IMG/VR virus record: IMGVR_UViG_3300033141_001633
Span: 1-29,473 of that record
Length of the DNA: 29,473 bases
Strand: one strand, 5' to 3'
From: a virus
Shown: piece after piece, positions 5,358 to 29,245 of the stretch
Position numbering within the stretch: position 1 is the stretch's first letter
How the letters are laid out: each line of letters starts with the position of its first letter
Made by a program: the position numbers and the translations under genes
Notes under the pieces: model-generated
The model's database searches: none
Told to the model about the DNA's origin: nothing
What the model saw: only the letters and a program-made list of their open reading frames with translations

Positions 5358-5404
5358 CCTATCACATCTTATCTCAATAACACCCCCTACGCATTAAACC
5401 AGAT

Positions 5405-5440: not shown

Positions 5441-5512
5441 CCGCGAGTACCCCCTTGATTTTTTCAATTTTATCCGTTTAACTGGATTTACCATTATCTT
5501 TCTTCCCTTTCC

Positions 5513-5534: not shown

Positions 5535-5544
5535 ATGTTGATTC

Positions 5545-5627: not shown

Positions 5628-5640
5628 ATCAAAATATCTC

Positions 5641-5769: not shown

Positions 5770-5776
5770 GGTTAGC

Positions 5777-8866: not shown

Positions 8867-8891
8867 TAACCCTATTTTGGAGGATTAACCA

Positions 8892-9737: not shown

Positions 9738-9770
9738 TAATACAAACTCTTGCACAAGGAGATTTTGACA

Positions 9771-10991: not shown

Positions 10992-11015
10992 TATCATAAC
11001 TCATGAGGTGACACC

Positions 11016-11663
11016 ATGTTCAAATGGATGAGAAAGCATTTCGTGCTAACCGGTGTCCTGATAATTGCTACGGTGGCTATTGCCTATGCGGGTACGGTAT
11101 CAATCAAGCCGTATGGCATAGCCACGCCTTATTGGTATGGGTACTCCAGCGGGGCTAAAAGTTCGTACTACTTAGGATTCCCGACGCTGACTGGCAATGA
11201 TACTGTAACGGGCATTGCCACGTCGCAGACCATTACCAATAAGACAATTTCAGGAGCCTCTAATACAATAAGCAATATCGGCAATTCAAGCCTGTCTGCG
11301 CCTAACTCGTACTTCACTGTTGCCCTGAGTGTGAACGGTCAGGAGTCCGCCACCGTTGATCCTGCGGCTGTGTTTCAGATGCCATTTGCGGCTACACTGG
11401 TTGAAGTAAGTGTTGGGGCCAGGGATATCGACACTGGGGATGGGAATGAGACATACACGGTCGATCTTGAGGAATCCGGAACGTCAGTGCTTGATTCGGC
11501 CATTTCCATTACCGCTGATGCAACTCCTGTTGTTGGGACGATCAGCGATGATAGCATCGCTGACAATGCTAAACTGGAGGTTGTGCTAACTTTGGGAGGC
11601 ACGTCTCCTGCAATTGATGACTTAACCGTGTTGCTTACTTTCAAGGTCGCGCATACCAGCTAA
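11016..11663 (+). CDS. exported-looking beta-rich protein after the capsid gene
   Basis: A 215-residue protein with a clear signal peptide: KWMRK, a hydrophobic stretch from V10 to I22, and an AYA site cleaved after A25. Residues 55-95 have a fibre-like repeat style (TGIATSQTITNKTISGASN), the kind found in head or tail fibres. Residues 100-215 are predicted beta, ending LTVLLTFKVAHTS. It has no recognised family and sits where a head fibre or head completion gene would be expected. A Sec signal is odd for something assembled in the cytoplasm. GAGGTG lies upstream of the ATG. Confidence 0.6.
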   Translation: MFKWMRKHFVLTGVLIIATVAIAYAGTVSIKPYGIATPYWYGYSSGAKSSYYLGFPTLTGNDTVTGIATSQTITNKTISGASNTISNIGNSSLSAPNSYFTVALSVNGQESATVDPAAVFQMPFAATLVEVSVGARDIDTGDGNETYTVDLEESGTSVLDSAISITADATPVVGTISDDSIADNAKLEVVLTLGGTSPAIDDLTVLLTFKVAHTS

Positions 11664-11679
11664 AATAAAGGAGGGCATT

Positions 11680-12132
11680 ATGAAGAAACTTTTATCCGCC
11701 CTGCTTTTCGCTTGTTTGCTCACGCCCACCGGGGCGTGGGCAGCAGGCACGATAACGGAAACCTGGACAGCGATCGGGGATAGAGATTACGTCCTGAAGT
11801 TTACTTGTGTAGCGGATGCCTCAGATGGGTCATTTCCTTCCCACGAGACTGTCAAGGCTGTGGATGGATGGGTTTACCTTATTACGACTGACCCGGGATC
11901 ACCGGCCCCTACCGATGACTACGACATAGTTATCAAGGACAGTGAGGGGGTTGATATCTCCGGTGGCATGCTGGCGAACAGAGATACCAGCAATTCAGAG
12001 CAGGTAATCCCAAAGATCAATAATAACTATGTGTCCAGGCGGGTTTACGGCCCATTGACAATTGAGATAACAAGCAACTCGACCAATAGCGCATTGGTTG
12101 TTGTATCGGTCTATTTCAACAGAGGGCCATGA
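11680..12132 (+). CDS. exported-looking protein, 150 aa
   Basis: AAAGGAGGG precedes the ATG. The N-terminus is a textbook signal peptide: KK, hydrophobic LLSALLFACLL, then AWA cleaved after A21. The mature part has aromatic and beta-rich segments (GWVYLITTDPGSPAPTDDYD, then SEQVIPKINNNY, and TIEITSNSTNSALVVVSVYF at the end). Proteins with this pattern occur in phage head-neck regions without known function. Its stop codon overlaps the next start (ATGA), so it belongs to the same operon as the neck genes. Confidence 0.6.
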   Translation: MKKLLSALLFACLLTPTGAWAAGTITETWTAIGDRDYVLKFTCVADASDGSFPSHETVKAVDGWVYLITTDPGSPAPTDDYDIVIKDSEGVDISGGMLANRDTSNSEQVIPKINNNYVSRRVYGPLTIEITSNSTNSALVVVSVYFNRGP

Positions 12133-12458
12133 CACTAAAAACTCAAATGACGAGCGACTTGTCTATCTTTTTTAATACAGATGAGTTTGCCGAAACGATT
12201 ATCTACACGCCGAGTGGTGGGAGTGGAACGGCCATATCAGCGATTGTTGAGAGGGACGATATTTTCCAGGAACCTTATATTCGTGGTCCTGATACCGCCA
12301 CATGCCTCGTCTATGTCAAGGCGAGTGATGTTTCCAGCCCTCAGTTTGGAGATACGTTCACGATTGATTCGGTAGTTTGGGAGTTTGATCCATCAAGGGG
12401 AGTCCTCTACATGGATGATGATGTTTATGCAATTGGTCTTGAGAGGCAGATGTCATGA
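12129..12458 (+). CDS. head-tail joining protein, gpFII-like
   Basis: A 109-residue protein with the FFNTDEFAETIIYTPSGGSG start characteristic of phage head-tail joining (lambda FII-like or adaptor) proteins, followed by beta strands and a final DDVYAIGLERQ. It would sit below the gpW ring and receive the tail. ATGA overlaps link it to both neighbours. Confidence 0.7.
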   Translation: MTLKTQMTSDLSIFFNTDEFAETIIYTPSGGSGTAISAIVERDDIFQEPYIRGPDTATCLVYVKASDVSSPQFGDTFTIDSVVWEFDPSRGVLYMDDDVYAIGLERQMS

Positions 12459-13069
12459 TTCATATTGAGATAGACGATAGGCAGATAAGGCACTTCCTTG
12501 ATAAATCTCCCGCACGGGCTAATTGGGCGTTAAAAGAGGCGTTCGGGAAAACTGGTGGTCATTATCGTAAATGGTTGCAGGGATTTATCCAAAAAGGTGG
12601 CGAAAATTGGCAACCACTTAGCGATGCCGCCCTCCGAAGCAAGAATAGGCAAAAAAGAACCCCTTTATATGCTTTAGGAGCATTGACGCGATACCGAGTT
12701 TCAAAGATCCAGAAGACGTTTTACCGCCTCCATATAGGGTTTTTTGGAGCAAAGACAAAAGGCCAGACCGTCAAGCAGTACAGGGCTTTTAGGGAGCGGT
12801 TCAAGGAATCCTTCGGGATGACGCCGCAGGCATTAGCAAAAATCCATGAATACGGGCGTACTCGGAGGGTAACTCCTGCTATGCGTCGCAAGATGCATTA
12901 TGTTGTCCCTGGATTTGGATTACAGAAAACTACCAAAAAGATTACTATCCCAGCACGTCCCATGGTCCAAATGCTTTACAAAAAGAAATACCGTGAAATG
13001 ATTAAGTACGTTGAGGACGCTTTTTTTGAGATATTTTTCAGCAATCGTAATTCTAAGCTGAAGGTGTGA
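12455..13069 (+). CDS. tail completion / virion morphogenesis protein, gpG/HK97-gp10-like
   Basis: A 204-residue, strongly basic protein. The C-terminal part has the family signature: IHEYGRTRRVTPAMRRKMHY around 130-150, then ITIPARPMVQ near 172. In related proteins the IHNFG...IPARPF pattern marks tail completion or terminator proteins that cap the tail at the neck. The N-terminal part contains WQPLSDAALRSKNRQKRTPL. Coupled by ATGA to the joining gene. Confidence 0.7.
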   Translation: MIHIEIDDRQIRHFLDKSPARANWALKEAFGKTGGHYRKWLQGFIQKGGENWQPLSDAALRSKNRQKRTPLYALGALTRYRVSKIQKTFYRLHIGFFGAKTKGQTVKQYRAFRERFKESFGMTPQALAKIHEYGRTRRVTPAMRRKMHYVVPGFGLQKTTKKITIPARPMVQMLYKKKYREMIKYVEDAFFEIFFSNRNSKLKV

Positions 13070-13072
13070 TTT

Positions 13073-14134
13073 ATGAAACTCACCGGGAGAGATGGTAAAT
13101 TACGCATATATGATAGCTCGGTCAACATCCTGGGCGAAGCTCCGCTTGATGATGTGACCATTAAAGTCGTCAAGTTCAATGGAGTCGCCACTTATAGCGA
13201 TATTACCGATGATGTTGAATCCGACGATGCCTTGGCTGCGAGTGCTTTCCTGACCGATAATGACGATGCAGTATTCATTGGAGCCACAACAGTCTTTGCA
13301 ATGATCCAGTATATCAAAGGCGCCGGTACGAATTATGCGGTAGCTTCGGGAGCGCTGAAGGCATTTTACTTTAACGGCACGGATTTCAGTACCCCGCTAA
13401 CGGTAACGGACGGCACAGCTTCAGGTGGAGACTGTTTCGCCCAGGATGGGGTAATTAGCTTCGCAATACCCAAAGACTGGCAAACAGGGGCAAATACCGT
13501 TGATTCTTCGTTACCATCCACGATGTACTTCATCAAGCTAATGACTACCACGTCTCTCACAACCGATCCTGATGCCGATGTTCTCGCTCCCGTTGACGGG
13601 CAATACTATGAGGTCCCATTCGCTTTGATGGATTATTCGGGACCTACTGGTCGAGCAAAAACTGAGGAGCTTCTAATTCTCAACCGCAATAAGATGGACG
13701 ACAAGGCACATTACATTGAGGGTGGGGATGATCGCATTTATGAGCCGGTCCCTGTTACTTTCTCAGCCTATTTGGACGACACCTACAACCGCACAAAACT
13801 CTTTGCGGCCCTTAGTTGCGGCAATCCTGGTGCTGATCGGTGGACGGCAAGTGGAACATCAACTAAGGGTGACACCAAAAATGACGGTACTAATGCCAAC
13901 CCCAGTTTTGTTGATAGCGACAAAAAGACCGTCAACGTCCAGATCATTTGGGAAGGTAATTACATATCAGGCACGAGTGGTCGTAAGCAAGTGGAGGGAT
14001 TCGCCCTTTACGAGTGCTACGCCCCGCCTGACCAGCAACAGATCAGCGAGGGGGAGGATGGCGTAATCCTTGCTTGCAATTTAGGGTGTTACGGAATAAT
14101 TGAGCGTATACACGGTTTCGGAAATCGTTATTAG
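13073..14134 (+). CDS. tail tube protein, long form with inserted domain
   Basis: A 353-residue protein whose first ~20 residues and last ~175 align by eye with the next gene: GKLRIYDS, SGPTGRAKTEELLILNRN, HYIEGGDD and PPDQQQISEGEDGV have close counterparts there. Between them, residues about 24-175 form an inserted beta-sandwich-like domain (ALKAFYFNGTDFSTPLTVTD, then a PKDW motif), a type found on several phage surface proteins. The position before the tail chaperones and tape measure fits a tail tube subunit. The insertion is probably exposed on the tail surface. Alternatively it is a tube-initiator or terminator variant. Confidence 0.65.
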   Translation: MKLTGRDGKLRIYDSSVNILGEAPLDDVTIKVVKFNGVATYSDITDDVESDDALAASAFLTDNDDAVFIGATTVFAMIQYIKGAGTNYAVASGALKAFYFNGTDFSTPLTVTDGTASGGDCFAQDGVISFAIPKDWQTGANTVDSSLPSTMYFIKLMTTTSLTTDPDADVLAPVDGQYYEVPFALMDYSGPTGRAKTEELLILNRNKMDDKAHYIEGGDDRIYEPVPVTFSAYLDDTYNRTKLFAALSCGNPGADRWTASGTSTKGDTKNDGTNANPSFVDSDKKTVNVQIIWEGNYISGTSGRKQVEGFALYECYAPPDQQQISEGEDGVILACNLGCYGIIERIHGFGNRY

Positions 14135-14145
14135 AGGAGGCTATT

Positions 14146-14727
14146 ATGTCTAAGTTCACGAATCGTTCCGGGAAGTTAAGATTATATGATGGCACTGCAA
14201 CGCCGTTTTACTTGGAATTGGATTTTGATCTCGGGGACTTCTCTGGCCCGATGGGTCAACCCAAAGTTGAGGAGTTGCTAATTCTCGACAGAAACACCGC
14301 TACAGAAGATATGCACTACATAACGGGCGGCGACGATGCTTTGATGGCCCCCGTGACTATCACTTTCGGCGCAAATCTTGTTGACAAGACTCAATGCATT
14401 TATTTGCTTGACTGGATTGATGTGATGAACGGCGGACTGTCGGCCACGATCAATGGCAACACGATTGTTTCTACACAGGGAGACACTCAGCGGGATGGAA
14501 GCAATAATAACCCCACCTTTGCTGATTCAGGCAAGTTAACTTGTAATATCGAATACCGCCTTAATGGCAGTACGGATCGAGTCTGGCACTATAACGAAGT
14601 ATGGCTTCCTGCTGACCAGCAACAGATCAGCGAGGCAGAGGACGGCGTAACGATCTCCTTAAATGGTCAGGTATACGGTACGATTGTCAGAGATACGGCA
14701 TTTACGAGCGGTAGTTCGATAGAATAG
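14146..14727 (+). CDS. tail tube protein, short form
   Basis: A 193-residue protein with GAGGAGG upstream. It is the likely main tail tube subunit: right length, strong ribosome site, immediately before the chaperone genes. It shares GKLRLYDG, GPMGQPKVEELLILDRN, HYITGGDD and PADQQQISEAEDGV with the longer gene just upstream. A 24-base exact DNA match links the two (14028-14051 and 14612-14635), so the duplication is fairly recent or has undergone gene conversion. Confidence 0.75.
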   Translation: MSKFTNRSGKLRLYDGTATPFYLELDFDLGDFSGPMGQPKVEELLILDRNTATEDMHYITGGDDALMAPVTITFGANLVDKTQCIYLLDWIDVMNGGLSATINGNTIVSTQGDTQRDGSNNNPTFADSGKLTCNIEYRLNGSTDRVWHYNEVWLPADQQQISEAEDGVTISLNGQVYGTIVRDTAFTSGSSIE

Positions 14728-14737
14728 GAGAAACGGT

Positions 14738-15250
14738 ATGGATAAACCTGAGCGGATCAGTGAACTTATTGAAGGGCAAAAGCTGTTTGATTCAACAGGG
14801 TACTCCCTGGTGAAAGTCACGAAGGATGGCAAAGAGCGATGGCTTGAATTGCCAATAAAATCAACGGGGGTTGCCGAATACATGGACAAGCTTTCAGGTT
14901 CAGCTCCACGGCCTCCGGTGATTAAGCGGGTGGTCAAGAAGGATTCCCCTGAAGGCAAAGAATTGGGATTGACACATGACAAATTGATGCAAGTCTTTGA
15001 TACGACTGATGAAGCATACGTTGATGCACTCAATCGACACAACCAAGATTTTAATTGGCGAGTCGCAATCTTTGCCCTTGACTTGGCCTGGAAGAAAAGC
15101 GATGGCACAGAGGCAAAGACTTTTGTGGAGAAAAAGACCATTTTGCAGAGTACCGGAATTACATGGGGGCATATCGAGCAAGTTTTCAAAGATGTCAAGA
15201 ATTTGACGACCGTACAGGAGGCGAAAATTGATTTTTTGCCCGAAAGCTGA
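14738..15250 (+). CDS. tail assembly chaperone, G-like
   Basis: A 170-residue protein placed between tail tube and tape measure, where lambda G lies. AGGAGA lies before the ATG. The N-terminal half has beta character (SLVKVTKDGKERWLELPIKS), the C-terminal half is helical (EAYVDALNRHNQDFNWRVAI). No strong family motif is visible, so the call rests mostly on position and on the frameshift arrangement at its 3' end. Ends KIDFLPES at TGA 15248. Confidence 0.7.
   Translation: MDKPERISELIEGQKLFDSTGYSLVKVTKDGKERWLELPIKSTGVAEYMDKLSGSAPRPPVIKRVVKKDSPEGKELGLTHDKLMQVFDTTDEAYVDALNRHNQDFNWRVAIFALDLAWKKSDGTEAKTFVEKKTILQSTGITWGHIEQVFKDVKNLTTVQEAKIDFLPES
15232..15238 (+). promoter_or_regulatory. -1 ribosomal frameshift slippery site T TTT TTG
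   Basis: In the frame of the upstream gene the codons read gaT TTT TTG, an X XXY YYZ heptamer. A -1 slip continues as GCC CGA AAG CTG, open through to the next stop at 15546. The in-frame TGA lies 10 bases further on. This is the same position as the G/GT frameshift in lambda. Confidence 0.65.
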
Positions 15251-15546
15251 CGGGCTTGACGGATGAAGTTCTGTCAGCCATAGATAAACGCAGTAAGAAG
15301 AAAAACAATCAAAAAGCAACTGATCTTTACCAGGCTGTCTCTACCATGAAAGAATTCAACCTTTCTCCCGCCGAATGGAGGCGGCTTTCCCGATTGGACA
15401 AAAAAATCCTCATATACTCAAGAGTTATGGAGCAGCACTATATTGATTGCACCCACGAGGAGCATAAGCGAAACTTGGAGCAGGAGCGCAAACGGCGTGA
15501 AATGATGGATAATATGCCTAAACTTGCGATTCCGAGGCGTAGATAA
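15238..15546 (+). CDS. T-like part of the G-T frameshift product
   Basis: This -1 frame runs from the slippery site to the TAA at 15544-15546 and encodes about 103 residues: LTGLTDEVLSAIDKRSKKK, then a lysine/arginine-rich helical segment and a final PKLAIPRRR. An independent start would be TTG 15256, but it has no ribosome binding site. A fused product beginning at 14738, about 269 residues in all, is therefore more likely. In lambda the GT fusion brings the tape measure protein to the tail tube subunits. The stop overlaps the tape measure ATG. Confidence 0.65.
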   Translation, partial: ARKLTGLTDEVLSAIDKRSKKKNNQKATDLYQAVSTMKEFNLSPAEWRRLSRLDKKILIYSRVMEQHYIDCTHEEHKRNLEQERKRREMMDNMPKLAIPRRR

Positions 15547-17513
15547 TGTTCGGAGCGAAAAAAGAAACCAAGGTTACGATAAGCGCCGAGACCTCGAAAT
15601 ACGAGAGAGCTATGCGCGGCGTCAAGCGATCCACTAAAAGTATGACGCAATCGGTTGAACGCTCCTGGAAATCGGCTACTGCCAAGATAACCGGATACCT
15701 TGCAGCCATTGGCCTCGGTTACGGAGTCAAGGAATTGGCAGGTAGTTTTCTTGATGCGGCGAATGCTACTGAGCAGTTTCAGATTAGACTTAGGGCACTC
15801 CTGGGGAGCACTGAAGAAGGCAACCAGCTTTTTCAGGATATGACTGAATATGCGTCTAAAGTGCCATTTGAGTTTGAGGAAATTATGGCGTCTGCAACTC
15901 AGCTTTCCGGTGTAATGAAAGGCGGGGTGCAGGAAATCAATCAGTGGATACCGATGATTGGGGATCTTGCGGCAGTTAGCGGACTGAGCATTGAGAAAAC
16001 TACTGAACAGGTCATCAGGATGTATTCTGCCGGTGCTGGGGCGGCTGATCTGTTCAGAGAGCGTGGGATTACCGCCATGATGGGGTTTGAGGCAGGTGTT
16101 AGCTATTCTGCGGAGGAAACCCGCAGAAAAATGATGGAGGCATGGACCAAGGCTGATAGCCAGTTTAAAGGGGTAACGGAGGACCTCTCAGGAACCTGGA
16201 CGGGTCTCATGTCTATGATGAAAGATAAGTGGTTTGCCTTCCGAAATCTCGTAATGGAGGCCGGAGTATTTGATGAGTTGAAAAAAATCCTATCTGATTT
16301 GAACGACCAGGCAGGGAGATGGCTTAAAACCAACCGGGAATTGATTAAAGTCAAAGTACCAGAATATATAAAAAAGATTCGTAATTATCTGGAGGATATT
16401 TGGGATATAGTTAGCTATGATTCTGCGATTCTCGAATGGGGAATTGTTGGTTTAGCGATTGGTGGCAAGAAATGGGGTGTAATCGCGGCTGGTCTGGGCC
16501 ACATGGTAACATGGGTAGGTAATCTTGCGAAGGCTTTAGGATTAGCCTCGGCCGGCATTATATCATTTTCAGAAATTGCAAAAGCTAATTTTACCGAACT
16601 TGAGGAGTTGATTAAGAGGGGTGAGGGAATTATATCAGGCACATCCTCTCTTGGTGGGCAAGTTAGATTGCCGATGCCGACTATGCCCGAAACTGTTGTT
16701 ACAGCAACCCCTATTGCTCCAGAACAACCTCTACAGCCAGGCCCTACCGATGAGCAACGAGAAAAAGCCCTCAAAGACTACGAAGCATGGAAACAGATGT
16801 GGATTGATATTGATACCCTGAGAGTCAAGGAAGCCGAGGAGCTTGAGCGTCATCGGATGGAACATGAGCAACAGATGTATGAGGAGGGGTTTGACGCCTG
16901 GCAGCAAATGGAAGAGGCCCGGATGGTGCTTATGCAAGAAAACGCCGAGAAGGAGGTGTCTTTAAGGGAATGGGTTATTGAGCAGATGGAAAGTCTGAAC
17001 ACCCAGGGATTTAATGATTTCGTAGGTAATCTTAAGTCGACCTTCCTTGCCTTCTCTAAGAACAGCAAAACTATGTTTGCCTTATATAAAGCTGTATCGT
17101 TGGCTCAGGCTATTATTTCAGGCATATCAGCGTCAATTGAAGCCTTCAAGAATGGCATGATAGCGGGGGGGCCGTATGCTGGTCCAGCGGTTGCGGCGGC
17201 TTACATGGCGGCATCTATTGCAGCCACGGGAGCCCAAATAGCGGCTATTATGAGCACGGATATAGGCAGTACCGGTCAACTTTCTCCTGGTGGTACGCCT
17301 GCAACACCAACATATCCGGTCTCCCCTGATACCGGCCTCCCGACATCGGGAACGGGTAGCCAGGGCCAAACCCTTGTGATCCATATTGAGGGTGATTTCA
17401 TCGGCGATGAGGCTTACATTGAAATGTTGGCTGACAAAATAACCGAGGGTGTGGAGGACCGCGATGTGTACCTGGTGGCTTCTCACTCGCAGTATGCGGA
17501 CGCTCTGGCATGA
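15546..17513 (+). CDS. tail tape measure protein
   Basis: A 655-residue protein starting at a TAATG overlap. The N-terminus matches tape measure proteins: KVTISAETSKYERAMRGVKR, then GYLAAIGLGYGVKELAGSFL, and an FEFEEIMASATQLSGVM segment near 110. Hydrophobic stretches occur near 295-345 and 515-575. A charged coiled coil spans about 400-485 (KEAEELERHRMEHEQQMYEE). The C-terminus is a GT/P-rich linker and an acidic end. It sets tail length and is ejected on infection. At roughly 0.15 nm per residue the length suggests a tail of about 100 nm, a rough inference. Confidence 0.9.
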   Translation: MFGAKKETKVTISAETSKYERAMRGVKRSTKSMTQSVERSWKSATAKITGYLAAIGLGYGVKELAGSFLDAANATEQFQIRLRALLGSTEEGNQLFQDMTEYASKVPFEFEEIMASATQLSGVMKGGVQEINQWIPMIGDLAAVSGLSIEKTTEQVIRMYSAGAGAADLFRERGITAMMGFEAGVSYSAEETRRKMMEAWTKADSQFKGVTEDLSGTWTGLMSMMKDKWFAFRNLVMEAGVFDELKKILSDLNDQAGRWLKTNRELIKVKVPEYIKKIRNYLEDIWDIVSYDSAILEWGIVGLAIGGKKWGVIAAGLGHMVTWVGNLAKALGLASAGIISFSEIAKANFTELEELIKRGEGIISGTSSLGGQVRLPMPTMPETVVTATPIAPEQPLQPGPTDEQREKALKDYEAWKQMWIDIDTLRVKEAEELERHRMEHEQQMYEEGFDAWQQMEEARMVLMQENAEKEVSLREWVIEQMESLNTQGFNDFVGNLKSTFLAFSKNSKTMFALYKAVSLAQAIISGISASIEAFKNGMIAGGPYAGPAVAAAYMAASIAATGAQIAAIMSTDIGSTGQLSPGGTPATPTYPVSPDTGLPTSGTGSQGQTLVIHIEGDFIGDEAYIEMLADKITEGVEDRDVYLVASHSQYADALA

Positions 17514-18088
17514 CGATAAGGATAACCTTCGATTCAAACAATGTCGACCTTCTGGTAGGGCCTAACGGCCTCGATAGCATATACCGAAGCGAATACAAAC
17601 GGCAACAATCGGGGAGCGGGAAGGCTGAGACTATTAATTTATATGGTATTCAGAAGTTCAGCTTTGACGCTCGGTTTACGGAGGCCACCTATCGTAGCTT
17701 GATTGCCTGGTGGTCATGGGCAAGGCAAGGAAAATCGTGGTCATTCACTATGGATTCGAGCAAAACGGGGAACACGGTAACTACGGGGGCACTAAGTCCT
17801 GGCACTACCAATATTCCCGTTGTGGCCTCGGGAGCTTTTTCAGCCGGGGAAGTTTGCTTATTGCGCGAACTCGATATGTCCGATTATGAGCTATTTACAA
17901 TTAATGCTGTTCCAAATGGAACTACCATCCAGGCCACGTCAGGGGTTATTTGGACTTATGCAACGTCGGGGGCGATTGTCAGGCATGTCGATTATTTTCC
18001 TGATGTCATAAGTACCGACAACCAATTTAATCCGACAAAGAACGGGGATTATTATAGTTGGACGTTTAATTTCATGGAAAACCTGTAA
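17510..18088 (+). CDS. distal tail / minor tail protein, copy 1
   Basis: A 192-residue protein directly after the tape measure, with an ATGA overlap. It contains TEATYRSLIAWWSWARQGKS around 60-80 and ends with FPDVISTDNQFNPTKNGDYY. The next gene is a clear paralog. The position after the tape measure corresponds to lambda M/L or distal tail genes. The middle third (GTTNIPVVASGAFSAGEVCL) is a small beta domain. No ribosome site of note, so translation is probably coupled. Confidence 0.6.
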   Translation: MTIRITFDSNNVDLLVGPNGLDSIYRSEYKRQQSGSGKAETINLYGIQKFSFDARFTEATYRSLIAWWSWARQGKSWSFTMDSSKTGNTVTTGALSPGTTNIPVVASGAFSAGEVCLLRELDMSDYELFTINAVPNGTTIQATSGVIWTYATSGAIVRHVDYFPDVISTDNQFNPTKNGDYYSWTFNFMENL

Positions 18089-18742
18089 ATGGCTATTCAG
18101 ATAACATACGATTCAAAAACCGTTGATCTTATTATGGCAGAGAGGGCCTTGGAGCCGAACTATTTACACGATTACCGCCGGAATATGGCAGGGAATGGCG
18201 CAGCGGAGACTATCAATTTACATGGCTTTCAAGAACATACCTTTGAGTTATATTTCACTGAATCAACTTATGAAGCCCTGATTGCTTGGTGGTCGTGGGC
18301 AAGGCAGGGAAATCCATGGTCATTTGCATTTGATAGCAACAAGGCGGTTGAGACCACCCTCTCAATGGCTGCTTCTGCGGATGAGGTATTAATTAACCTG
18401 ACTCAGACAGCCGGTTTCAGTTCAGGGGATGTGTGTTTTATCCAATCGGCAAGGGATGACAAATATGAAATCGTTACGATAGATACAGTAGGCGTTGGAG
18501 ACGTCTATATCGTTGATGCTGATGGCACATACATTGTTGATGCTGATGGCACTTACCTGGTCAGCGGCGAGGTGGGGACAGCGGTATCAATTACGTCGGC
18601 TCTTAAATTCTCATATGACGCAGGAGATTATTTTCGGCATTGGAATTACTGGCCTGAAGTATTCAGCCTTGATACTGATTTCAAACCATTGAAAAACGGT
18701 GACTATTATAAACATTTAATTAGATTTGCGGTGTTAAATTGA
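18089..18742 (+). CDS. distal tail / minor tail protein, copy 2
   Basis: A 217-residue paralog of the preceding gene: it shares AETINLHGFQ, TESTYEALIAWWSWARQGN and DYFRHWNYWPEVFSLDTDF. It is about 25 residues longer, mainly in the middle, where a 24-base tandem repeat encodes DADGTYIVDADGTYLV. It could form a hetero-oligomeric ring with copy 1 or be a specialised version. Start ATG 18089 directly follows the previous TAA, with only GGAAA nearby. Confidence 0.6.
   Translation: MAIQITYDSKTVDLIMAERALEPNYLHDYRRNMAGNGAAETINLHGFQEHTFELYFTESTYEALIAWWSWARQGNPWSFAFDSNKAVETTLSMAASADEVLINLTQTAGFSSGDVCFIQSARDDKYEIVTIDTVGVGDVYIVDADGTYIVDADGTYLVSGEVGTAVSITSALKFSYDAGDYFRHWNYWPEVFSLDTDFKPLKNGDYYKHLIRFAVLN
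18512..18559 (+). repeat. 24-base tandem repeat, two copies
   Basis: Units beginning at 18512 and 18536 each read gttgatgctgatggcac, followed by a diverged atac/ttac end. The second differs from the first at only a few positions. It duplicates the peptide VDADGTYI in the distal-tail paralog and looks like recent slippage in a surface loop. Confidence 0.8.
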
Positions 18743-21700: not shown

Positions 21701-22542
21701 ATGTGTATAACTCATTAGTGGCTAAATCTGCGGTAGTTGCCCAAAGCCAGTTGAGAGCCGGGGTGGACGACGACACGCCTGGGCTTATTATGGCCTATGG
21801 GGGTGGGGATACAGAACAGGGTGGCCGGATAAATTTACATATGGCATCCGACCACGATACGAGCAACGAGTGCTGGTTTGTAGACGTGGATACTGAGGAT
21901 CTACGCTTCGGCGTAACTCCTGATGGTGTTATGGCGGAACTAACACAAACAGGCGACTGGACTACTTACGGCGATTCCCTCACCTTCGGCGACGGCTCTG
22001 GAACACAGACCCTGACCTTCAACGGAACCACAGACGGCACAATAGCGTGGGATGATTCGAACACCGAGTTTGATCTTGACTATGACCTCCATTTGTCCAA
22101 CGCCGGCGATGTTACTCTAACCCTGGAGGCTGATACCGACAATACTACAGAATCGGACAACCCCAGTTTGGTTTTTTCTCAAGATGGGGGAGCGGTTACG
22201 GCCAGTATAGGGCTGATTGAATCGGGGAATGCTTTCAAGATAGCTCACAATTTTGATGCGGCTGATATTGAAATTGCTACAACCGGCACGGGAAGAGTGT
22301 ATTTCGACGTCTACCGCATTGGAATCAAAAACGCCTCTCCAGCGTATACTTTGGATGTGACGGGCACTGCCCGTTTTACAGGGGCGGTAACGACTGATGA
22401 TCTAACAATCTCAGGCGGTGATTTGTACCTAACAGGAAAGAGTGCCGCCGGCTCGGCCACGGCTGGGGCTATTTATTTTGACACAGACGATAACCACTTT
22501 TATGGCTACAATGGTTCAGCATGGGTGCAATTAGACAACTAA
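18739..22542 (+). CDS. tailspike / tail fibre with beta-helix and signal peptide
   Basis: A 1267-residue protein starting at TTG 18739 (overlapping the previous TGA). The first 20 residues resemble a signal peptide: MKKY, hydrophobic FLLLVILSV, then NAYG. Residues 60-560 are repetitive fibre segments (GDGTPSTGTFTSLSLSTP, TTLGLGSLATQSTVD, LTGGGASGDVTLNI). Residues about 618-990 resemble a pectate-lyase-type right-handed beta-helix, starting FNPAMYSGTDTEKIQAAIDD and GGTVYIPRDSDG, then many N-rich coils (IIGNRFI, LSGNQFIA). The IGDGTNDVTLTFDG motif near 583 recurs as FGDGSGTQTLTFNG near 1079. The end AGAIYFDTDDNHFYGYNG is typical of phage fibres. It probably binds or degrades host surface polysaccharide; catalytic residues cannot be assigned. 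Confidence 0.8.
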   Translation: MKKYTAFLLLVILSVCNAYGESEPPPKTIADFDAVSPMADADMFLIWDTSAGVTKNVTKDVLMSSPGAIGDGTPSTGTFTSLSLSTPLTHENGGLELDVSAFDGILKISGGATSEIADNSSNWNTAYSDRLKWDGGSTGLDAATGRTSLGLGSLAILNSIDISENTNLAVTAPIILTDDTLSVATNSDTSAGVVLSGSGQANKVWKTDGSGVPGWRDDSTGGTPSFDSITTGTNTTATMTVGAGGTLTYTSTGVVNASQFQGVTTVDSTEFGYLDGVTSAIQTQLNGKQATGNYITDLTGDVTASGPGSVAATIANDAVTYAKMQNVSATDKLLGRSSAGAGDIEEIACTAAGRALLDDADASAQRTTLGLGSLATQSTVDNSDWSGADLAMANGGTGASLSDPDADRIMFWDESAEAITWLTVGANLTVTDTTISATDNDTTYSAGTALDLSGTTFNVDLSELATSTTDGDGDYFVVVDAANAQKKLTKANINLSGFNNDAGWTSNTGDITGVTAGDGLTGGGASGDVTLNIGSSSTITVNADDIEVAVDSIGDTQLAYNTGQHLTTASSPTFAGMTVTGNATIGDGTNDVTLTFDGGNDGVIKWMEDEKYFQGSFNVFNPAMYSGTDTEKIQAAIDDAEAVGGTVYIPRDSDGEWTLTDADEDGACLVVEAGITIRGDGSVATDTASQLVSTDTTAHILKIKSDKPVMVRDLWLEFDRNGSDPDSGMCCIYVTDYDNDDGNTRSQFENLALYNGDYGLHFYRARWWQVKDSFIAYNNTYGILVENWNSTDSGANTIQGNYIVTDGSSHAGIMYRTPSGVRILNNHIAGLGVGNSADYDIHLDATSSGDGYTTINSWIILGNNLEGFPIRALYITTNTASVVGGIIANNKFDSGMELLGDATYKIQNTLIIGNRFIHPTGTGSHNETLKCTYTDNLTLSGNQFIANGLSTIGINLDSSVTDTRITPSNTFDGYTTDVGGAGSPITSYVYNSLVAKSAVVAQSQLRAGVDDDTPGLIMAYGGGDTEQGGRINLHMASDHDTSNECWFVDVDTEDLRFGVTPDGVMAELTQTGDWTTYGDSLTFGDGSGTQTLTFNGTTDGTIAWDDSNTEFDLDYDLHLSNAGDVTLTLEADTDNTTESDNPSLVFSQDGGAVTASIGLIESGNAFKIAHNFDAADIEIATTGTGRVYFDVYRIGIKNASPAYTLDVTGTARFTGAVTTDDLTISGGDLYLTGKSAAGSATAGAIYFDTDDNHFYGYNGSAWVQLDN

Positions 22543-22559
22543 AATTAAGGAGAAAAGCA

Positions 22560-22802
22560 ATGAAGAAGGTACTTTTATTTCTGGGCGTGTTCTTATTCCT
22601 CTTAACCCCGAGTTCCTGGGCTGACTACACCCTCAAAACCAGAGGCGATGTCGAAAAGGCACTCCAACGGTTTTTCCAGGAAGAACAGGGGAATAGGCTG
22701 TCAACTTACTCCATGAGGGGGTTGATGATGGAGATCAACAGGGTGTTCACAGAGAACATCAAACGACCTGAGCCAAAGGACGATGACTCTATCAAGAAAT
22801 AG
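22560..22802 (+). CDS. small exported protein, 80 aa
   Basis: The ATG at 22560 follows AAGGAG by seven bases; it lies inside a longer frame that begins in the fibre gene without a ribosome site. The product has KK, a hydrophobic run VLLFLGVFLFLL, and SWA cleaved after A21. The mature part is about 59 residues, helical and charged (TRGDVEKALQRFFQEEQGN, then MRGLMMEINRVF). It may be a periplasmic partner or chaperone of the neighbouring fibre proteins; no family is recognised. Overlaps the next gene by 20 bases. Confidence 0.6.
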   Translation: MKKVLLFLGVFLFLLTPSSWADYTLKTRGDVEKALQRFFQEEQGNRLSTYSMRGLMMEINRVFTENIKRPEPKDDDSIKK

Positions 22803-24831
22803 CAATTTTGATAGTTATAACGCTCTTGGGCATAAGACCCCGATATATCTTGTCCATTTTGAGGGTGAGACAACGGACTATTGTAACCATCTTCCTCTGA
22901 CAAATGTCACTGATGGGATCAAGCAATACCTGGTTGATATATCGGGTCTAAGCCAAAAAATAGTGCCAGAGCAGGGATCAGGGTCCATCTCCGGCCTTGT
23001 GGTGCGTATCCTTGATTACGATAATGAGATAACCGCCCTCCTTGCTACCGACAGCTATTATTTCCACCGACGAAAGACGATTATTAAGGCCGGATACCTC
23101 GGAATGGCCGAGACGGACATGCTTACAATTATGAACGGATGGGTGACTGGTCTTGACATGGACAAGGACCTCCTGATTTATCAGTTCAAAATCACAGATC
23201 CCCAAAAATGGATGCAGCGCAAAATCTTTCGGGGATCTGAATCAAGTGAAGTTAAAATATCAGGAAACCCGCTCAATATCCTTATGCAGGTCTTAACCAG
23301 TACGGGCAATGAGGTTGAGCTTGAGGATTTCAATGCGGGGGTTACGCCCTCAACAATCAGCTTGACGGCCATAGCTGATACGTACCCGGATGTTTCGATT
23401 ATGAGGGGTACAATATCTGCGGATACAGCACTCATTGTTTACGACCATAGCGATCAGTCCGGTACTGATTACAGATATATTTGTTTTAAATACAGATGGT
23501 TCTCTGGTTCAGCTACAGCGAATATTAAAGTCACCTATGCGACTCTTGGGGGTGGTGGGCATACCTACGACCCAACTAACTACTATAAGGCCGTTACGCT
23601 TGATCTGACCGGCGAATGGGCAACTGCTGTTTTGGACATGTGGAATCTGGACGCCGGCGGAGACGATTGGAAGGATAACACGATTACCGGCATTAGAATT
23701 GACCTTAACAATTCAAATGGAGCAGTATTTGAGTTTGATTATATCTCGGTAGGTAATGGCCGATACGACAACCTCAATGCAGAAAATGGGCTTGGGATAG
23801 ATGTTGAACATATTGACATTCATGGTATTGAAGCGGTGAGGGATGATTGGTATCCGGCAGACTCTTACTACATGCAGTTTACAATCAACGAACGAGAGAA
23901 GGCCAAGGATTGGATCGAGACCGAGATCCTAAAGCCCCTCAACTGTTATCCAGTAATTGATGGTCAGGGACGGTTCGGGGTAAAGCCTTTCAAACCTCCG
24001 TTGGCAGCCATAGAAGAGGCTCAAACCCTCACTGAGAGTAATATCATTGGATTGCCTTCGTGGTCGGCAAATCTTGAAGCGTTGGTTAATGAAGTTGAAG
24101 TCCATTACGACTGGGATTCAGCAGATGGCGAATTTGATACTATCGAGTTTTTTGCTGATGGAACGAGTATCAATAACAGGGGGCCCGGGAAAAAACCAAT
24201 CACCATCAAAACCAAAGGTCTACATTCAACCCCATGGGGCTCAATGAACGGCCGTGCTGCTGATATTACTGAAGGGCGCAAAACAAAGATATTTGGTAGG
24301 TTCTCGACTCCGCCCATATCTATTGGAGCTAAGGCATTTTTCAGCAAATTAGCCATTGAGGCTGGAGATATTATTGAGCTTACGAATAGTCATATCCCTG
24401 ATATTGAGGTAGGGTCACGGGGATTAACTTCCCGGAGAATGGAGGTCATCAACCGGTCGATCGACTGGAAGAAGGGGTCCTGTAAGTTCGCCTTGCTCGA
24501 TACTGGTTTTGACAAGGATACGTATGGCGTTGTATCTCCATCGGGGACGGTCGTTTCAGGATTAAGCTCTACCCAATTTACGCTCTCAGCCCCTGATGCG
24601 GCCAAGTTTGAAGAAGGCTGGGAGATTGAAATATTTGACTCTGGCATGAGGAGCCAATCTTCTGCAATTACAATAACGGATATTACAGGAACTACGATTA
24701 CAACGGACGATATTGGAGCGACACCGCAAGCGGGTTGGATAATAATATTCGCTGCATATAGCGATTGCGTATCAGCCCAACAACTTTACGCTTTCTCAAA
24801 ATCAAGTGGAGCGCATGCAATAGTGCCGTAG
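22783..24831 (+). CDS. baseplate hub / tail tip-like protein
   Basis: A 682-residue protein. The N-terminal part has PIYLVHFEGETTDYCNHLPL, then segments on binding and displacement of rings (SGLVVRILDYDNE, IMNGWVTGLDMDKDLLIYQF). The middle contains a beta-rich insertion around 190-330 and then INEREKAKDWIETEILKPLN with PVIDGQGRFGVKPF, a pattern seen in phage hub or tail-tip proteins that open at the host surface. The C-terminal 110 residues are a small beta domain (SPSGTVVSGLSSTQFTLSAP). The hub role is inference from position and architecture. It overlaps the preceding gene by 20 bases; AAGGA lies close to the ATG. Confidence 0.55.
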   Translation: MTLSRNSNFDSYNALGHKTPIYLVHFEGETTDYCNHLPLTNVTDGIKQYLVDISGLSQKIVPEQGSGSISGLVVRILDYDNEITALLATDSYYFHRRKTIIKAGYLGMAETDMLTIMNGWVTGLDMDKDLLIYQFKITDPQKWMQRKIFRGSESSEVKISGNPLNILMQVLTSTGNEVELEDFNAGVTPSTISLTAIADTYPDVSIMRGTISADTALIVYDHSDQSGTDYRYICFKYRWFSGSATANIKVTYATLGGGGHTYDPTNYYKAVTLDLTGEWATAVLDMWNLDAGGDDWKDNTITGIRIDLNNSNGAVFEFDYISVGNGRYDNLNAENGLGIDVEHIDIHGIEAVRDDWYPADSYYMQFTINEREKAKDWIETEILKPLNCYPVIDGQGRFGVKPFKPPLAAIEEAQTLTESNIIGLPSWSANLEALVNEVEVHYDWDSADGEFDTIEFFADGTSINNRGPGKKPITIKTKGLHSTPWGSMNGRAADITEGRKTKIFGRFSTPPISIGAKAFFSKLAIEAGDIIELTNSHIPDIEVGSRGLTSRRMEVINRSIDWKKGSCKFALLDTGFDKDTYGVVSPSGTVVSGLSSTQFTLSAPDAAKFEEGWEIEIFDSGMRSQSSAITITDITGTTITTDDIGATPQAGWIIIFAAYSDCVSAQQLYAFSKSSGAHAIVP

Positions 24832-24841
24832 GGAGGCAAAT

Positions 24842-25630
24842 ATGGCGACTTGGGATATATCAGCACTTAGGACAATTTTATCCACTGAGACCGATGCTGA
24901 CAGTCCGGTAAGCGAGGAGTTGATGAGCCAGTTCCGGGAAAATTGGGAAGCCCTGGTCCTTCTGCTATTGGGGACGGGGATTACCGGAACTGTTACATCA
25001 ATTACTGAGACAGTATTGACTGACACAGCGCAATCATACGATGCAGATACGCATATCAACCATACTCTACTCATAACGTCTGGCGATGCTATTGGCAATA
25101 TGTATACCATTGACGATAACGATGCCACAACATTGACTTGTACCGGCGACACAATGGTAACTGATGGAGTAGAGGTGGGCGATACATTTGCAATCCTGTA
25201 CGATATGAAGGTCAACCAGGATGGACACGACCACGACGGAGATAATAGCAAAGAGGCCGTTTTTGCAAAAGGCCGGGTTGTGGCGTTCTCGGCGTTGTAC
25301 CCGACGAAGGAATATAGCAATACCGGTACAAGTTGGACCACGGTTGCTACATTGGGGCTTTACGTTCCCGCCACGGCCAATAAACTATATGCGGAATACA
25401 GCCTGAAAGCAGAATCTCTTACAACGGCATCGGTAAGGATAAATGAGACTACCGCAGGGAATTCGTCTGGATTAGCAACGGCAAGCACATCTTATACCTG
25501 GGTATCTGAAGACTCATTGGATATGTCCGGGGTCTCAGAGGGCTGGACTACGATAAATATCCAGCTCCGTAATTCAGGAGCGTCAGGCACATCCTATCTT
25601 GATGGGTTAACCTTAGTATGGGGACCATAA
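24842..25630 (+). CDS. minor tail / fibre-associated protein
   Basis: A 262-residue protein with GGGAGG before ATG. The N-terminus (TWDISALRTILSTETDADSP) is followed by a helix with ENWEALVLLLLG. Then come a beta-rich middle containing NMYTIDDNDATTLTCTGDTM and an HDHDGDNSK loop that could bind metal, and a beta-rich end (TSWTTVATLGLYVPATANKL). It lies between the hub-like gene and the DGR target, so it is likely an adaptor or collar for the fibre. No family is recognised. Confidence 0.55.
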   Translation: MATWDISALRTILSTETDADSPVSEELMSQFRENWEALVLLLLGTGITGTVTSITETVLTDTAQSYDADTHINHTLLITSGDAIGNMYTIDDNDATTLTCTGDTMVTDGVEVGDTFAILYDMKVNQDGHDHDGDNSKEAVFAKGRVVAFSALYPTKEYSNTGTSWTTVATLGLYVPATANKLYAEYSLKAESLTTASVRINETTAGNSSGLATASTSYTWVSEDSLDMSGVSEGWTTINIQLRNSGASGTSYLDGLTLVWGP

Positions 25631-25641
25631 TGGAGGATATA

Positions 25642-28600
25642 ATGAAACGATTTATAGTGATTACCGCTTTTTTACTATGCCTGATTCCCGGTGTCGGGAA
25701 TGCTGGAGAACCGAAAACGTGGGGGTACGATTGGGAGGCCATCTTTGGAGATCTGGGTGGTGTTACTACATCAGGAACACCAGTTGATAATGATTACGCT
25801 AAGTTTACTGATGAGGACACCGTGGAGGGGCGCAGTTATGACGAGGTTAAAAGTGACCTCGGATTAGGTGAGACCGATAGTCCCACATTTGACAACCTGA
25901 CCATAACGTCTGCAATTACTGAGGGGGGTAATGCAGTCCCCAACAGTACCGACAACCTTTCATTTTTTGCATCGACTACCTCAGCACAGTTATCAGGGGT
26001 CTTGAGCGATGAGACCGGATCAGGTCTTGCGGTCTTTGCAACTTCGCCTTCCTTAACGACTCCCGACATCGGCACTCCATCAGCAGGAACGCTTACTAAT
26101 TGTACAGGGCTTCCAATAGACACCGGAGTTTCAGGTTTGGGGGCAGGGGTAGCCACATTTCTCGGAACTCCGTCCAGCGGGAATTTAGCGACTGCTGTTA
26201 CGGATGAAACAGGTTCGGGCGCATTGGTGTTCGGCACATCTCCGTCGCTTACAACCCCTGCCCTGGGAGCTGCAACTGCGGATTCTCTTGATGCGGCCGG
26301 GCAAATAGACGCAGGCACACTAACTATAAATTCAGGATCAATCACCGATACCAGCGGGGCGATCTCATTTGGGGATGAAAACCTATCAACCACCGGGACC
26401 TTAAGCGCAGCGACCACCGACCTGACAAGTGTTACCGACGACAACATCCCCAAAATGGGCGCAAGTGGGTTTGAAGACTCGGCTCTATCAGACGTCGGCA
26501 GTGGAGTTGTGGCATATGATAGCAGTAGAAGTATAACCGATATGTACCACTTGGCGGACAAGAGATATGTGGATGAAGCGGTTACGGCATTGGGAGCAAG
26601 ATATTACATGCTTAACACTGCTTCTGGAGAATCGGACTACAAATTATGCTCTGCTTCCGCTTCGGGCGGTGGGGAACAAAGTGTTAGCGGGGCAAGTCTG
26701 TCAGACGATGATTATGTCCAAGGCTGGATCGCTCCGAACACTAATGAACCGGACAAGTTGCTACTCGGCGTATACAACTGGCGGATCTATGCTGAGAAAA
26801 CTGGAGGCACAGAAACACTGAGGCTGTACTGGAAACTTGTTGAGAGAAAGAATGATGACTCAGAGGTTGTGATTGCAACCTCTGTTGTTAGTAACGAGAT
26901 AACGAGCGGCAAGAACTCGTATATTATTCCCCTGACACTATCGGCCGATCATGATATAGCAAGCGATAGTTATGTTGTTGGTAAGATCTATGCCGATGTG
27001 TCCGGGAGCGGATCGGCCCCGAGCGTCACGTTGTACTATGAGGGCGATTCGCACTCGCACTGGCAAATACCGGTAAACACAGAGATATTTAATAACATCT
27101 ATGTCAACATAGATGGCGACACGATGACGGGGGTCTTAACCGTCAACCCCGATGGCACTAATGAGACATTCCAGGTCAACGATGGCTCGGTGGATTTCAC
27201 AGACGGCAACGCTGGTACAACTGGCACGCTAACCGTAGATGCGTCAGGGAATTGGTCGTATAATAAGAATATAGTGTCAACCGGCAACGTAGCAGGCGCG
27301 ACGTATGGGTCGGATGGGTCAATCTCGGATGCGGAATTGCTTAAAATAGACAACAGTCCGTCCACGACTGATATTGCCATGCTTGAACTTGCTACCAATG
27401 CAGAAGTGGCGGCGTTTACGGATGAGACCAGAGCTGTTACCCCTGAAGGTCTTGGTTATGCAATGGCCGGAGTGTTGGCCTATGGAGTAGAGTGGGACGA
27501 GGATGAAGCCAGCCCTACTTTGACCCGTACAGGAGCTTTAGCGGGAATAGCAGCAGGGGAGAGTCCAGGTGATGTTGTATTGCCCATACAGGCGTCTATG
27601 GTGCGTGTTATATTGGCCGATGATGGGTCTGAGGTATATGAACTCTGTCCTACGGATTCAACAAAAAAAGCTGATTGTTCAACCGCCTCTAACCTGGACG
27701 GCACGGACGGTCAGGTTATGGTGCGCATTGACAGGTTCGCTTACCTATACACCTACGATGCCGCAACTAATGTACACCACTGGAGCATATCAAGTGTGCT
27801 CTTACCGGGCTATGAATGGCACCCGGCGTTTTATAAAGACGGTGAATGGGTAGAGCATAGATACATCGGGGCCTACGAGGGTGTGGGATATGACGATAGT
27901 ACATCAGCTTATTTTGATGGTGATGATCCAGACGATAACCCGGCAACCAATTGGCCTGGGGGCACAGCAATAGACACAGCCAATGACAAGCTCGGTTCCG
28001 TAAGTGGCTATGCTCCTTTGGCGAATGAGACCAGGGCAGAGTTCAGAGCTATTGCCTCAAATCGTGGAGCTGGCTGGAGACAGCAGGACTTCTATCTGGT
28101 GAGTGCTATTCAGTTACTCTATCTCGTGGAATACGCATCGTTTTACAGTCAAGATGTTATTGGAATGGGCCGGACAGAATTGACCGGCGGAACCTGGGCA
28201 AAAGACAATTATATAGGCGTCACGGGCAAATCGAACAGTGACGGCAATGCAACTGCTAATACCGGCGGGGATACTAATGATGCTTACATGAGCTACAGAG
28301 GTATTGAGAACTTTTATGGCAATATTTGGAAGTGGGTAGATGGATTTAATATCAATAACAACATTCCTTATGTCTGCAACAATGAAGCGAATTATGCGGA
28401 GGATACGGATACTAATTACTCCAGGTTAGAAGATACCGGCGGAAGTGGGATAACGTTGCATAACGGTGATGGTTACCAAACCACCCTGGAGCAGACGAAA
28501 GGAGGCTTTTTACCAAGTGCGGTTGGCGGAAGTAGTTCGACATATATCACGGATTACTATTATCAAGATACGGGATGGCGGGTGGTGAAGTTTGGTGGTC

Positions 28601-28698
28601 CTGCGCATGTTACGTCTGCGGCGGGGTTTTTTTGTTGGTCTTTGGCTAATTCCGGTACTTATGATCACGTGACTATTGGTTCCCGGATTGCTTACTAA
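25642..28698 (+). CDS. fibre-like DGR target with C-type-lectin/FGE-like end and signal peptide
   Basis: A 1018-residue protein. The ATG at 25642 has GGAGG five bases upstream; an in-frame GTG/ATG further upstream does not. Residues 1-21 are a Sec signal peptide: KR, hydrophobic FIVITAFLLCLI, GNA cleaved after A21. Residues 60-230 are phage-fibre repeats (LSDETGSGLAVFATSPSL recurs as TDETGSGALVFGTSPSL). A beta region follows. The last ~300 residues resemble the formylglycine-enzyme/C-type-lectin fold used by DGR variable proteins: RYIGAYEG, YGNIWKWVDGFN, DTGWRVVKFGG and the closing IGSRIAY. No catalytic role is expected; the end is a ligand-binding surface. Confidence 0.85.
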   Translation: MKRFIVITAFLLCLIPGVGNAGEPKTWGYDWEAIFGDLGGVTTSGTPVDNDYAKFTDEDTVEGRSYDEVKSDLGLGETDSPTFDNLTITSAITEGGNAVPNSTDNLSFFASTTSAQLSGVLSDETGSGLAVFATSPSLTTPDIGTPSAGTLTNCTGLPIDTGVSGLGAGVATFLGTPSSGNLATAVTDETGSGALVFGTSPSLTTPALGAATADSLDAAGQIDAGTLTINSGSITDTSGAISFGDENLSTTGTLSAATTDLTSVTDDNIPKMGASGFEDSALSDVGSGVVAYDSSRSITDMYHLADKRYVDEAVTALGARYYMLNTASGESDYKLCSASASGGGEQSVSGASLSDDDYVQGWIAPNTNEPDKLLLGVYNWRIYAEKTGGTETLRLYWKLVERKNDDSEVVIATSVVSNEITSGKNSYIIPLTLSADHDIASDSYVVGKIYADVSGSGSAPSVTLYYEGDSHSHWQIPVNTEIFNNIYVNIDGDTMTGVLTVNPDGTNETFQVNDGSVDFTDGNAGTTGTLTVDASGNWSYNKNIVSTGNVAGATYGSDGSISDAELLKIDNSPSTTDIAMLELATNAEVAAFTDETRAVTPEGLGYAMAGVLAYGVEWDEDEASPTLTRTGALAGIAAGESPGDVVLPIQASMVRVILADDGSEVYELCPTDSTKKADCSTASNLDGTDGQVMVRIDRFAYLYTYDAATNVHHWSISSVLLPGYEWHPAFYKDGEWVEHRYIGAYEGVGYDDSTSAYFDGDDPDDNPATNWPGGTAIDTANDKLGSVSGYAPLANETRAEFRAIASNRGAGWRQQDFYLVSAIQLLYLVEYASFYSQDVIGMGRTELTGGTWAKDNYIGVTGKSNSDGNATANTGGDTNDAYMSYRGIENFYGNIWKWVDGFNINNNIPYVCNNEANYAEDTDTNYSRLEDTGGSGITLHNGDGYQTTLEQTKGGFLPSAVGGSSSTYITDYYYQDTGWRVVKFGGPAHVTSAAGFFCWSLANSGTYDHVTIGSRIAY
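28576..28698 (+). other. DGR variable region (VR), approximate limits
   Basis: This covers residues 979-1018, WRVVKFGG to the stop. Between 28591 and 28686 only about 10 of 96 bases are A on the coding strand, while G and T dominate. That is what adenine-specific mutagenic homing leaves. The codons at P987-S992, C998-A1002 and S1004-T1011 are the likely diversified sites; conserved GG, AGFF and IGSR positions frame them. The true edges need the template repeat, which is not in the window. Confidence 0.75.
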
Positions 28699-28759
28699 TT
28701 CAAATAATTTAACAGGGTTATTATGTTTCAGCAGGTAGCTAAACTCAGGAGGTCTAAAC

Positions 28760-29245
28760 ATGACAAAATTAATCACAATAATCACAGTACTAATATTTCT
28801 GATCCCAGCATCAGCATTAGCGGCAGCCAAAACAGCAGAGTCTAAAACCTCGCCACCGGTTATCCAGAAGATTGCACCAGGAATGCACTACTATAATTAC
28901 AACATTCAAGAAATTCAGAAAGATCCAGACGGTGATGGGCCATTGGAGACGGAGACTTTTTATCAGTATAACTATGTTGTGATCAAAGACAAACTGACAA
29001 AGCTGAAAGTCCTGGATGCCATAGCAGAGGCAGAGTCTTCTACAAGTACAGCAGATATTGAGAATGTAGCTACGCACAGAAGCGAGGCCATGAACAAGCT
29101 CGCTGAAATATCAGCTATGAGCTACTCACAGATTGACACACATATTGACGATACGTTTAGTGGGTTATCTACGGCACAGAGGAATAGCTTAAAGAAGCTC
29201 TATAAAGCTGTGTTGGCATTGATCAAGAATATGGATCTTGAGTAG
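28760..29245 (+). CDS. exported protein downstream of the DGR target
   Basis: A 161-residue protein with AGGAGG before the ATG. The signal peptide is hydrophobic LITIITVLIFLI, then ALA cleaved after A21. The mature part contains MHYYNYNIQEIQKDPDGDGP, then a helical C-terminal half (SYSQIDTHIDDTFSGLST, LKKLYKAVLALIKNMD). The helical end resembles an assembly or coiled-coil domain. I do not recognise it as the usual DGR accessory protein Avd, which lacks a signal peptide. It is a candidate partner of the variable fibre. Confidence 0.6.
   Translation: MTKLITIITVLIFLIPASALAAAKTAESKTSPPVIQKIAPGMHYYNYNIQEIQKDPDGDGPLETETFYQYNYVVIKDKLTKLKVLDAIAEAESSTSTADIENVATHRSEAMNKLAEISAMSYSQIDTHIDDTFSGLSTAQRNSLKKLYKAVLALIKNMDLE

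Follow-up and report, generated by a model that had tools for sequence, protein, structure and literature searches.

Textbook tailed-phage assembly is entirely cytoplasmic, and the 29,473-base IMG/VR contig IMGVR_UViG_3300033141_001633 (hereafter the window, meaning this whole stretch) raises the question of why fibre-type genes in the late operon of such a phage should begin with what look like Sec signal peptides (SPs), and where their products go. Six genes with such N-termini had been listed in a first-pass annotation of the window; they are designated here by the position of their first base (Table 1). In answer, export of the fibre module can be considered well supported as a prediction, and the signals have the look of genuine Sec signals under selection, placed on a module that works without them in other phages. 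The further proposal, that the whole module would be exported to the periplasm and added at lysis to particles made in the cytoplasm, is given about an even chance of being right.

Sec signals on the fibre genes

N-termini were scored with a three-region log-odds model built from 50 Escherichia coli Sec signals. In leave-one-out trials the scorer hit the exact cleavage site for 48 of the 50 signals, and on random sequences its 99th and 99.9th percentiles were -1.8 and 5.4. Five window genes, 11016, 11680, 22560, 25642 and 28760, all exceed the latter value, with scores from 8.6 to 22.1, and at most 0.1% of 2000 residue shuffles of their own N-termini match them. All five, out of the six listed, have a basic n-region, a hydrophobic core and small residues at -3/-1, and just upstream of each leader start lies a Shine-Dalgarno site of the GGAG, AGGAG or GAGGT type. 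Dual products from internal starts were ruled out, as no such start backed by a Shine-Dalgarno site was found near the cleavage sites of these five genes. Judged by sequence, the five N-termini are strong signals of the signal peptidase I type. The sixth, that of the large fibre or tailspike 18739, is weaker than first annotated: 2.1% of shuffles match its score, and the low score, a TTG start that overlaps the preceding stop codon and the lack of a Shine-Dalgarno site at that start make its signal probable at best. Its neighbour 22560 bears a strong one. The remaining window genes score -2.7 or lower.

The start of 18739 is also what favours reading the signals as artefacts of wrong start codons or as chance hydrophobic N-termini. 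This reading is refuted for five of the six genes by their Shine-Dalgarno sites at the signal start, their scores beyond the random 99.9th percentile and the recurrence of the pattern in relatives, and as an account of the whole it is scarcely credible. The same start-picking routine, applied to 289 open reading frames (ORFs) of lambda, Mu, P22, HK97 and T7, let only two pass, compared with five of the 31 in the window (Fisher p = 1e-4). Those two are lambda lom and bor, both known to be exported; none of the core head and tail genes of these phages passes. In unrelated fibre-bearing viral contigs the count is 4/577 (p = 3e-5). The tail gene 22783, taken as a cytoplasmic control, and the tail gene 24842 score far below the five, and no other window gene passes. 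The signals are thus confined to fibre-class genes and their small neighbours within a single structural operon, as had been claimed; head, neck/connector, tail-tube and tape-measure genes never carry them.

As to the type of export, no lipobox with a Cys at +1 occurs in the six window proteins, and neither a transmembrane-like stretch in their mature parts nor an outer-membrane barrel or a sorting tail was seen; over all loci, 85 of the 90 SP genes lack a lipobox and five have one. Membrane anchoring of the fibres, one of the options considered earlier, is unlikely in view of the missing lipoboxes and transmembrane segments. Given a two-membrane host, the simplest reading is that the exported window proteins would be soluble in the periplasm. 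A need for disulphides was rejected as the reason for export, the mature proteins having 0, 1, 6, 0, 6 and 0 Cys residues with no pattern. Pfam and NCBIfam searches of the exported proteins returned little.

Table 1. Window genes discussed in the text; the predicted cut is marked by ↓
Feature	Position	Strand	SP position	Predicted cut	SP score	Remarks
Major capsid protein	9750..10991	+		no SP	-10.5	Pfam Phage_capsid_4, E 2e-16; anchor for finding relatives
Exported fibre-like protein, 215 aa	11016..11663	+	11016-11090 if cut at AYA↓G	MFKWMRKHFVLTGVLIIATVAIAYA↓G	9.0	immediately 3' of the major capsid gene
Small exported protein, 150 aa	11680..12132	+	11680-11742	..PTGAWA↓A	22.1	
Large fibre/tailspike, 1267 aa	18739..22542	+		LKKYTAFLLLVILSVCNAYG↓E (AYG↓E)	-0.7	TTG start overlapping previous gene's stop; DUF5907 repeat
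Small exported partner, 80 aa	22560..22802	+	22560-22622	..PSSWA↓D	15.5	directly after the 18739 fibre
Tail protein between two fibre/partner pairs	22783..24831	+		no SP	-25.6	cytoplasmic control; tail role assigned from position
Tail protein immediately 5' of the exported fibre 25642	24842..25630	+		no SP	-16.4	
Fibre with C-type-lectin/FGE-like, DGR-target-like C-terminus, 1018 aa	25642..28698	+	25642-25704	..GVGNA↓G	8.6	
Exported fibre companion, 161 aa	28760..29245	+	28760-28822	..SALA↓A	15.7	

Gain or loss of the leader in the lectin-tipped fibre and its companion

The 25642 product matches the tail protein family phrog_5302 (E 8e-83), and a search with its lectin-type C-terminus yielded 80 loci. 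Of the 71 complete fibre N-termini in this set, 17 carry an SP and 54 lack one; hydrophobicity is bimodally distributed and clearly separates the two classes. L167 is counted among the former despite a negative call from a distant upstream start, since its SP-type start scores 8.5 and has a Shine-Dalgarno site. In a maximum-likelihood phylogeny built from the C-terminal domain, the SP label changes nine times, seven of the changes being forced by supported branches, compared with 16.2 changes for shuffled labels; the trait therefore clusters and yet has repeatedly been acquired or lost. In close pairs, leaders seem to have been exchanged as modules at the predicted cut or close to it. L159 (..VANA↓YRRKHHRAYGIV, also written ..NVANA↓YRRKHHRAYGIVWDESQ) faces the SP-less L162 (MSRRKHHRAYGVT, also written MSRRKHHRAYGVTWDESQ); likewise, L117 (..NVEA↓VSLPVEYYGIQWDENTSTPSAIERTG) faces the SP-less L116 (MSYKPLPISYYGITWDENTSTPSAIERTG). 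The four annotated tail-protein homologues that were checked, from MetMV, S-EIV1, Perkons and Versailles, are all without an SP.

In contigs with an SP-bearing fibre, 25 of the 220 other genes also carry a signal, compared with 10/804 in the remaining contigs. Long clusters of signal-bearing genes occur: four in a row in L117, about six in L159 (some with weak scores) and four in L142, where positions 4315-8140 hold two lectin-type fibres separated by one small gene, each of the three with an SP.

The end of the fibre C-terminus varies between relatives, and beside some of these lies an N-rich template-like repeat or a reverse transcriptase. The earlier label of 25642 as a fibre of a diversity-generating retroelement (DGR) is putative and based on homology; neither a reverse transcriptase nor a template repeat was seen in the window, which ends 775 nt after the fibre gene. 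In L040, the fibre C-terminus recurs at positions 82-335 in copies resembling a template repeat, apparently as a tandem pair, and an ORF that looks HNH-like by eye (352-1059) lies between them and the companion gene.

The 28760 product belongs to a family encoded downstream of the lectin-type fibre in many phages and also in MetMV, a virus of archaea. Its SP-less members begin at the cut of the SP-bearing ones or within a few residues of it: ..ALA↓AAKTAESKTSPP in the window, with the family sequence TAESKTSP.., can be compared with MSQILTAESKTSPS in L040 and MKTIAESKSSPP in L108. An SP-bearing companion was found at seven of the eight loci with an SP-bearing fibre and at none of the 25 with an SP-less one (Fisher p = 2e-6). 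Because fibre and companion switch jointly, their N-termini suggest that the two must share a compartment. The proposal that the small exported proteins are partners of the fibres is supported by this shared state of 28760 and by the position of the 22560 homologues described below.

If the N-terminal helix remained uncleaved, it could act as a signal anchor tethering the fibres in the inner membrane or as a hydrophobic plug fixing the fibre to the particle. Several of the hydrophobic cores are indeed long, and no good cleavage site is seen in 18739 or in the fibre of L058; most of the other proteins, in contrast, have clean A-x-A sites, conservation of the 11016 family begins at the predicted +1 residue, and SP-less homologues start at or near the predicted cut. 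The AlphaFold model of 28760 also speaks against a retained helix, its residues 1-21 over the leader being of low confidence and disordered and the chain being folded from residue 24. An uncleaved helix is accordingly held to be distinctly unlikely.

The companion family, an uncharacterised fibre partner with weak matches to phrog_11557, stands beside a lectin-type fibre in very different viruses, among them L101 (5501-5839), L108, L139, L161 and L175. No solved structure was found for it by sequence and no significant Foldseek match in the PDB; the best VIA-align Z of 4.8 is uninformative. Viral matches to the fold are weak throughout and involve small crAss-like phage proteins and one protein with DUF4376. 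An 81-kb viral contig with an exported companion, L057, contains several ORFs that by eye resemble glycosyltransferases or sulfotransferases (6789-11514).

Proposed destination of the exported module

In the favoured mechanism, the capsid, neck, tail tube and tail tip would be made in the cytoplasm as usual, while the adhesion module, that is the fibres and their small partner proteins, would pass through the Sec translocon and have its leaders removed by signal peptidase I. In the periplasm of an assumed two-membrane host the fibres would then fold and associate with their partners, and at lysis the finished particles would meet this periplasmic store and the fibres would dock, so that the last step of virion maturation would take place outside the cytoplasm. 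The 24842 product is a possible cytoplasm-made dock for the 25642 fibre. We infer cleavage, periplasmic location, folding with the partner and docking at lysis from these patterns. Periplasmic assembly remains the best of the options proposed at the outset, its location and docking steps being the conjectural part; another of those options, a domesticated prophage, is unlikely, as complete terminase/portal/capsid operons recur in many viral contigs. More broadly, and with rather less than even confidence, we propose a recurrent class of tailed phages whose Sec-exported adhesion module would be stored in the periplasm and mounted at lysis, the route being switched by gain or loss of the leader.

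The virion is the likeliest destination of the exported fibres because their SP-less orthologues are tail proteins. The main rival places them off the virion: located in the periplasm or displayed on the infected (or lysogenic) cell, fibres and partners would bind receptors, glycans or incoming phage and so cause superinfection exclusion, protect progeny from debris or mediate adhesion, as cellular DGR proteins do. Such a role would accord with the N-terminal signals typical of cellular DGR targets (PMC8144416), with the export of phage-fibre-like adhesins by Bdellovibrio (PMC10769870) and with lambda lom, an exported protein encoded among tail genes. The window, however, has no second, unexported fibre copy that the virion could use, this fibre and companion occur together in other phages without an SP, the fibre being an ordinary tail protein there, and the window proteins show none of the outer-membrane or surface-sorting features looked for above. 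An off-virion role is the less likely reading, though it deserves to be kept in view.

Lambda lom and bor are also the precedent for moron-type cargo, in which host-derived exported genes unrelated to the virion would have been inserted into the late operon. Here 25642 is a homologue of tail fibres and 28760 a fibre companion, both related to SP-less tail proteins and companions; the region yields promoter and terminator matches no better than shuffled sequence does, and the signal-bearing genes recur in position, either behind the capsid gene or within the fibre cluster. Cargo of this kind is very unlikely.

Several points weigh against fibre mounting at lysis. Chains cross Sec unfolded, which would require large trimeric fibres not to fold beforehand; we know of no tailed phage shown to add fibres after export, and the periplasm itself is an assumption. 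Kinship among the contigs inflates the statistics, most of the joint signal coming from two clades of SP-bearing companions, in one of which L108, with fibre and companion both SP-less, is nested. L108 and L116 pair an SP-less fibre with at least one other SP gene, and the SP-bearing fibre of L136 has only a weak, SP-less companion match.

Three pairs of a fibre and a small neighbour can be recognised in the window, in our interpretation; 25642/28760 is the best grounded, 18739/22560 fairly so and 11016/11680 weakly. The 22560 family carries an SP in the window, L034, L035 and L036 and lacks it in L109, whose fibre (64% identical) and companion are likewise SP-less; the L109 protein, too, differs from the family by a swap at the predicted cut or close to it. 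Its members sit after a fibre gene in L036 and after a gene for a 538-aa protein with a signal-like N-terminus in L034/L035. For 11016 the scorer placed the cut two residues earlier (AIA↓YAG), and AYA↓G is preferred because conservation begins there: in this family the leader varies, and a conserved GT[IV]S..PYGI[AS]TP.WY motif begins directly at the predicted +1 residue. Beyond it follow a TNKT repeat and a variable C-terminus of varying length, which in sequence terms is the pattern of a fibre anchored through its N-terminus; the AlphaFold model of 11016 is poor (pLDDT 44). All complete 11016 homologues found carry an SP. Whether related phages keep the signals differs between genes: the gene after the capsid gene has an SP in ten related contigs (L014, L015, L016, L018/L047, L020, L002, L048, L050, L059 and L060), and 54 of the 71 lectin-type fibres counted above have none; L021, L022 and L025 have either no such post-capsid gene or a different one in which no signal is called. 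Homologues of 11680 bear an SP in L058 and L037, adjoining SP-bearing genes of the fibre cluster. L037, a contig missed by the capsid search, has four or five SP genes in one cluster (7570-14368), including its 11680 homologue (29% identity).

The window consists entirely of the late region of a tailed phage, with a ParB-like gene, a radical SAM gene, a gpA-type terminase, a lambda-type portal, a cement-like protein, the Phage_capsid_4 capsid, an FII-type connector, a tape measure, tail proteins and fibres; no tRNA was found in it. The radical SAM gene (609-1949), with a Radical_SAM_N2 domain and a weak likeness to B12-binding radical SAM families, is unusual cargo for the place where a phage late region begins. 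Capsid homologues of 52-80% identity occur in 14 viral contigs. A Nitrospiria host was considered and is doubtful: the capsid alignment matched one named contig, from a Nitrospiria metagenome-assembled genome, and a binning error is possible there because no further genome among 295 of the phylum matched and the 25642 fibre matched none.

Comparison with known systems

Exported fibre modules, and pairs of fibres differing mainly in the leader, fit badly both with assembly confined to the cytoplasm and with the use of a missing SP as an argument that DGR proteins come from phages (PMC6199706). Related fibres with and without an SP are ready-made natural experiments on fibre location and incorporation into the virion. 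Mounting at lysis, if true, would affect the linkage of phenotype to genotype in DGR evolution as well as fibre folding, and it would bear on the annotation of fibres in metagenomes, where exported would not imply cellular. In the open-access literature searched, no tailed phage with an exported fibre module is described, and no cultured phage with this module was found; PfAn1 shares only a repeat with the window and is without an SP.

The closest known relatives are the receptor-binding tail proteins of phrog_5302, found in MetMV, S-EIV1, Perkons, the Bacteroides phage Versailles and crAss-like phages. They have the same C-terminal domain of the formylglycine-generating enzyme (FGE)/C-type-lectin type and several share the small downstream companion gene with the window, but the proteins of MetMV, S-EIV1, Perkons and Versailles lack the SP that the window fibre has. 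The window fibre and its relatives resemble the DGR targets of phages in the variable C-terminal end within a lectin-like domain and in the template-like repeat or reverse transcriptase beside some of the relatives. Phage DGR proteins have been reported to lack SPs, and a phage origin was argued for them on that ground (PMC6199706), whereas 17 of 71 fibres have one here, and the window fibre is an exception to that published statement. Cellular DGR targets, on the other hand, typically carry N-terminal signals or membrane segments (PMC8144416).

Exported proteins of phage-like build are also known from bacteria. The mosaic adhesive trimer (MAT) fibres of Bdellovibrio are phage-like trimers that can be exported with an SP, and they resemble the window fibres in having a conserved domain after the signal and variable tips, among which is a C-type lectin fold (PMC10769870). 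They are, however, cellular proteins of a predator encoded outside phage operons, and the likeness noted here is one of description. WceF of Pantoea stewartii is an exported protein with a phage tailspike fold (PMC7949094); it differs from the window proteins in using the Tat instead of the Sec pathway and in being a single bacterial enzyme. Finally, lambda lom and bor are SP genes of a tailed phage, lom lying among the tail genes, but their products are outer-membrane proteins of the lysogen and not fibres.

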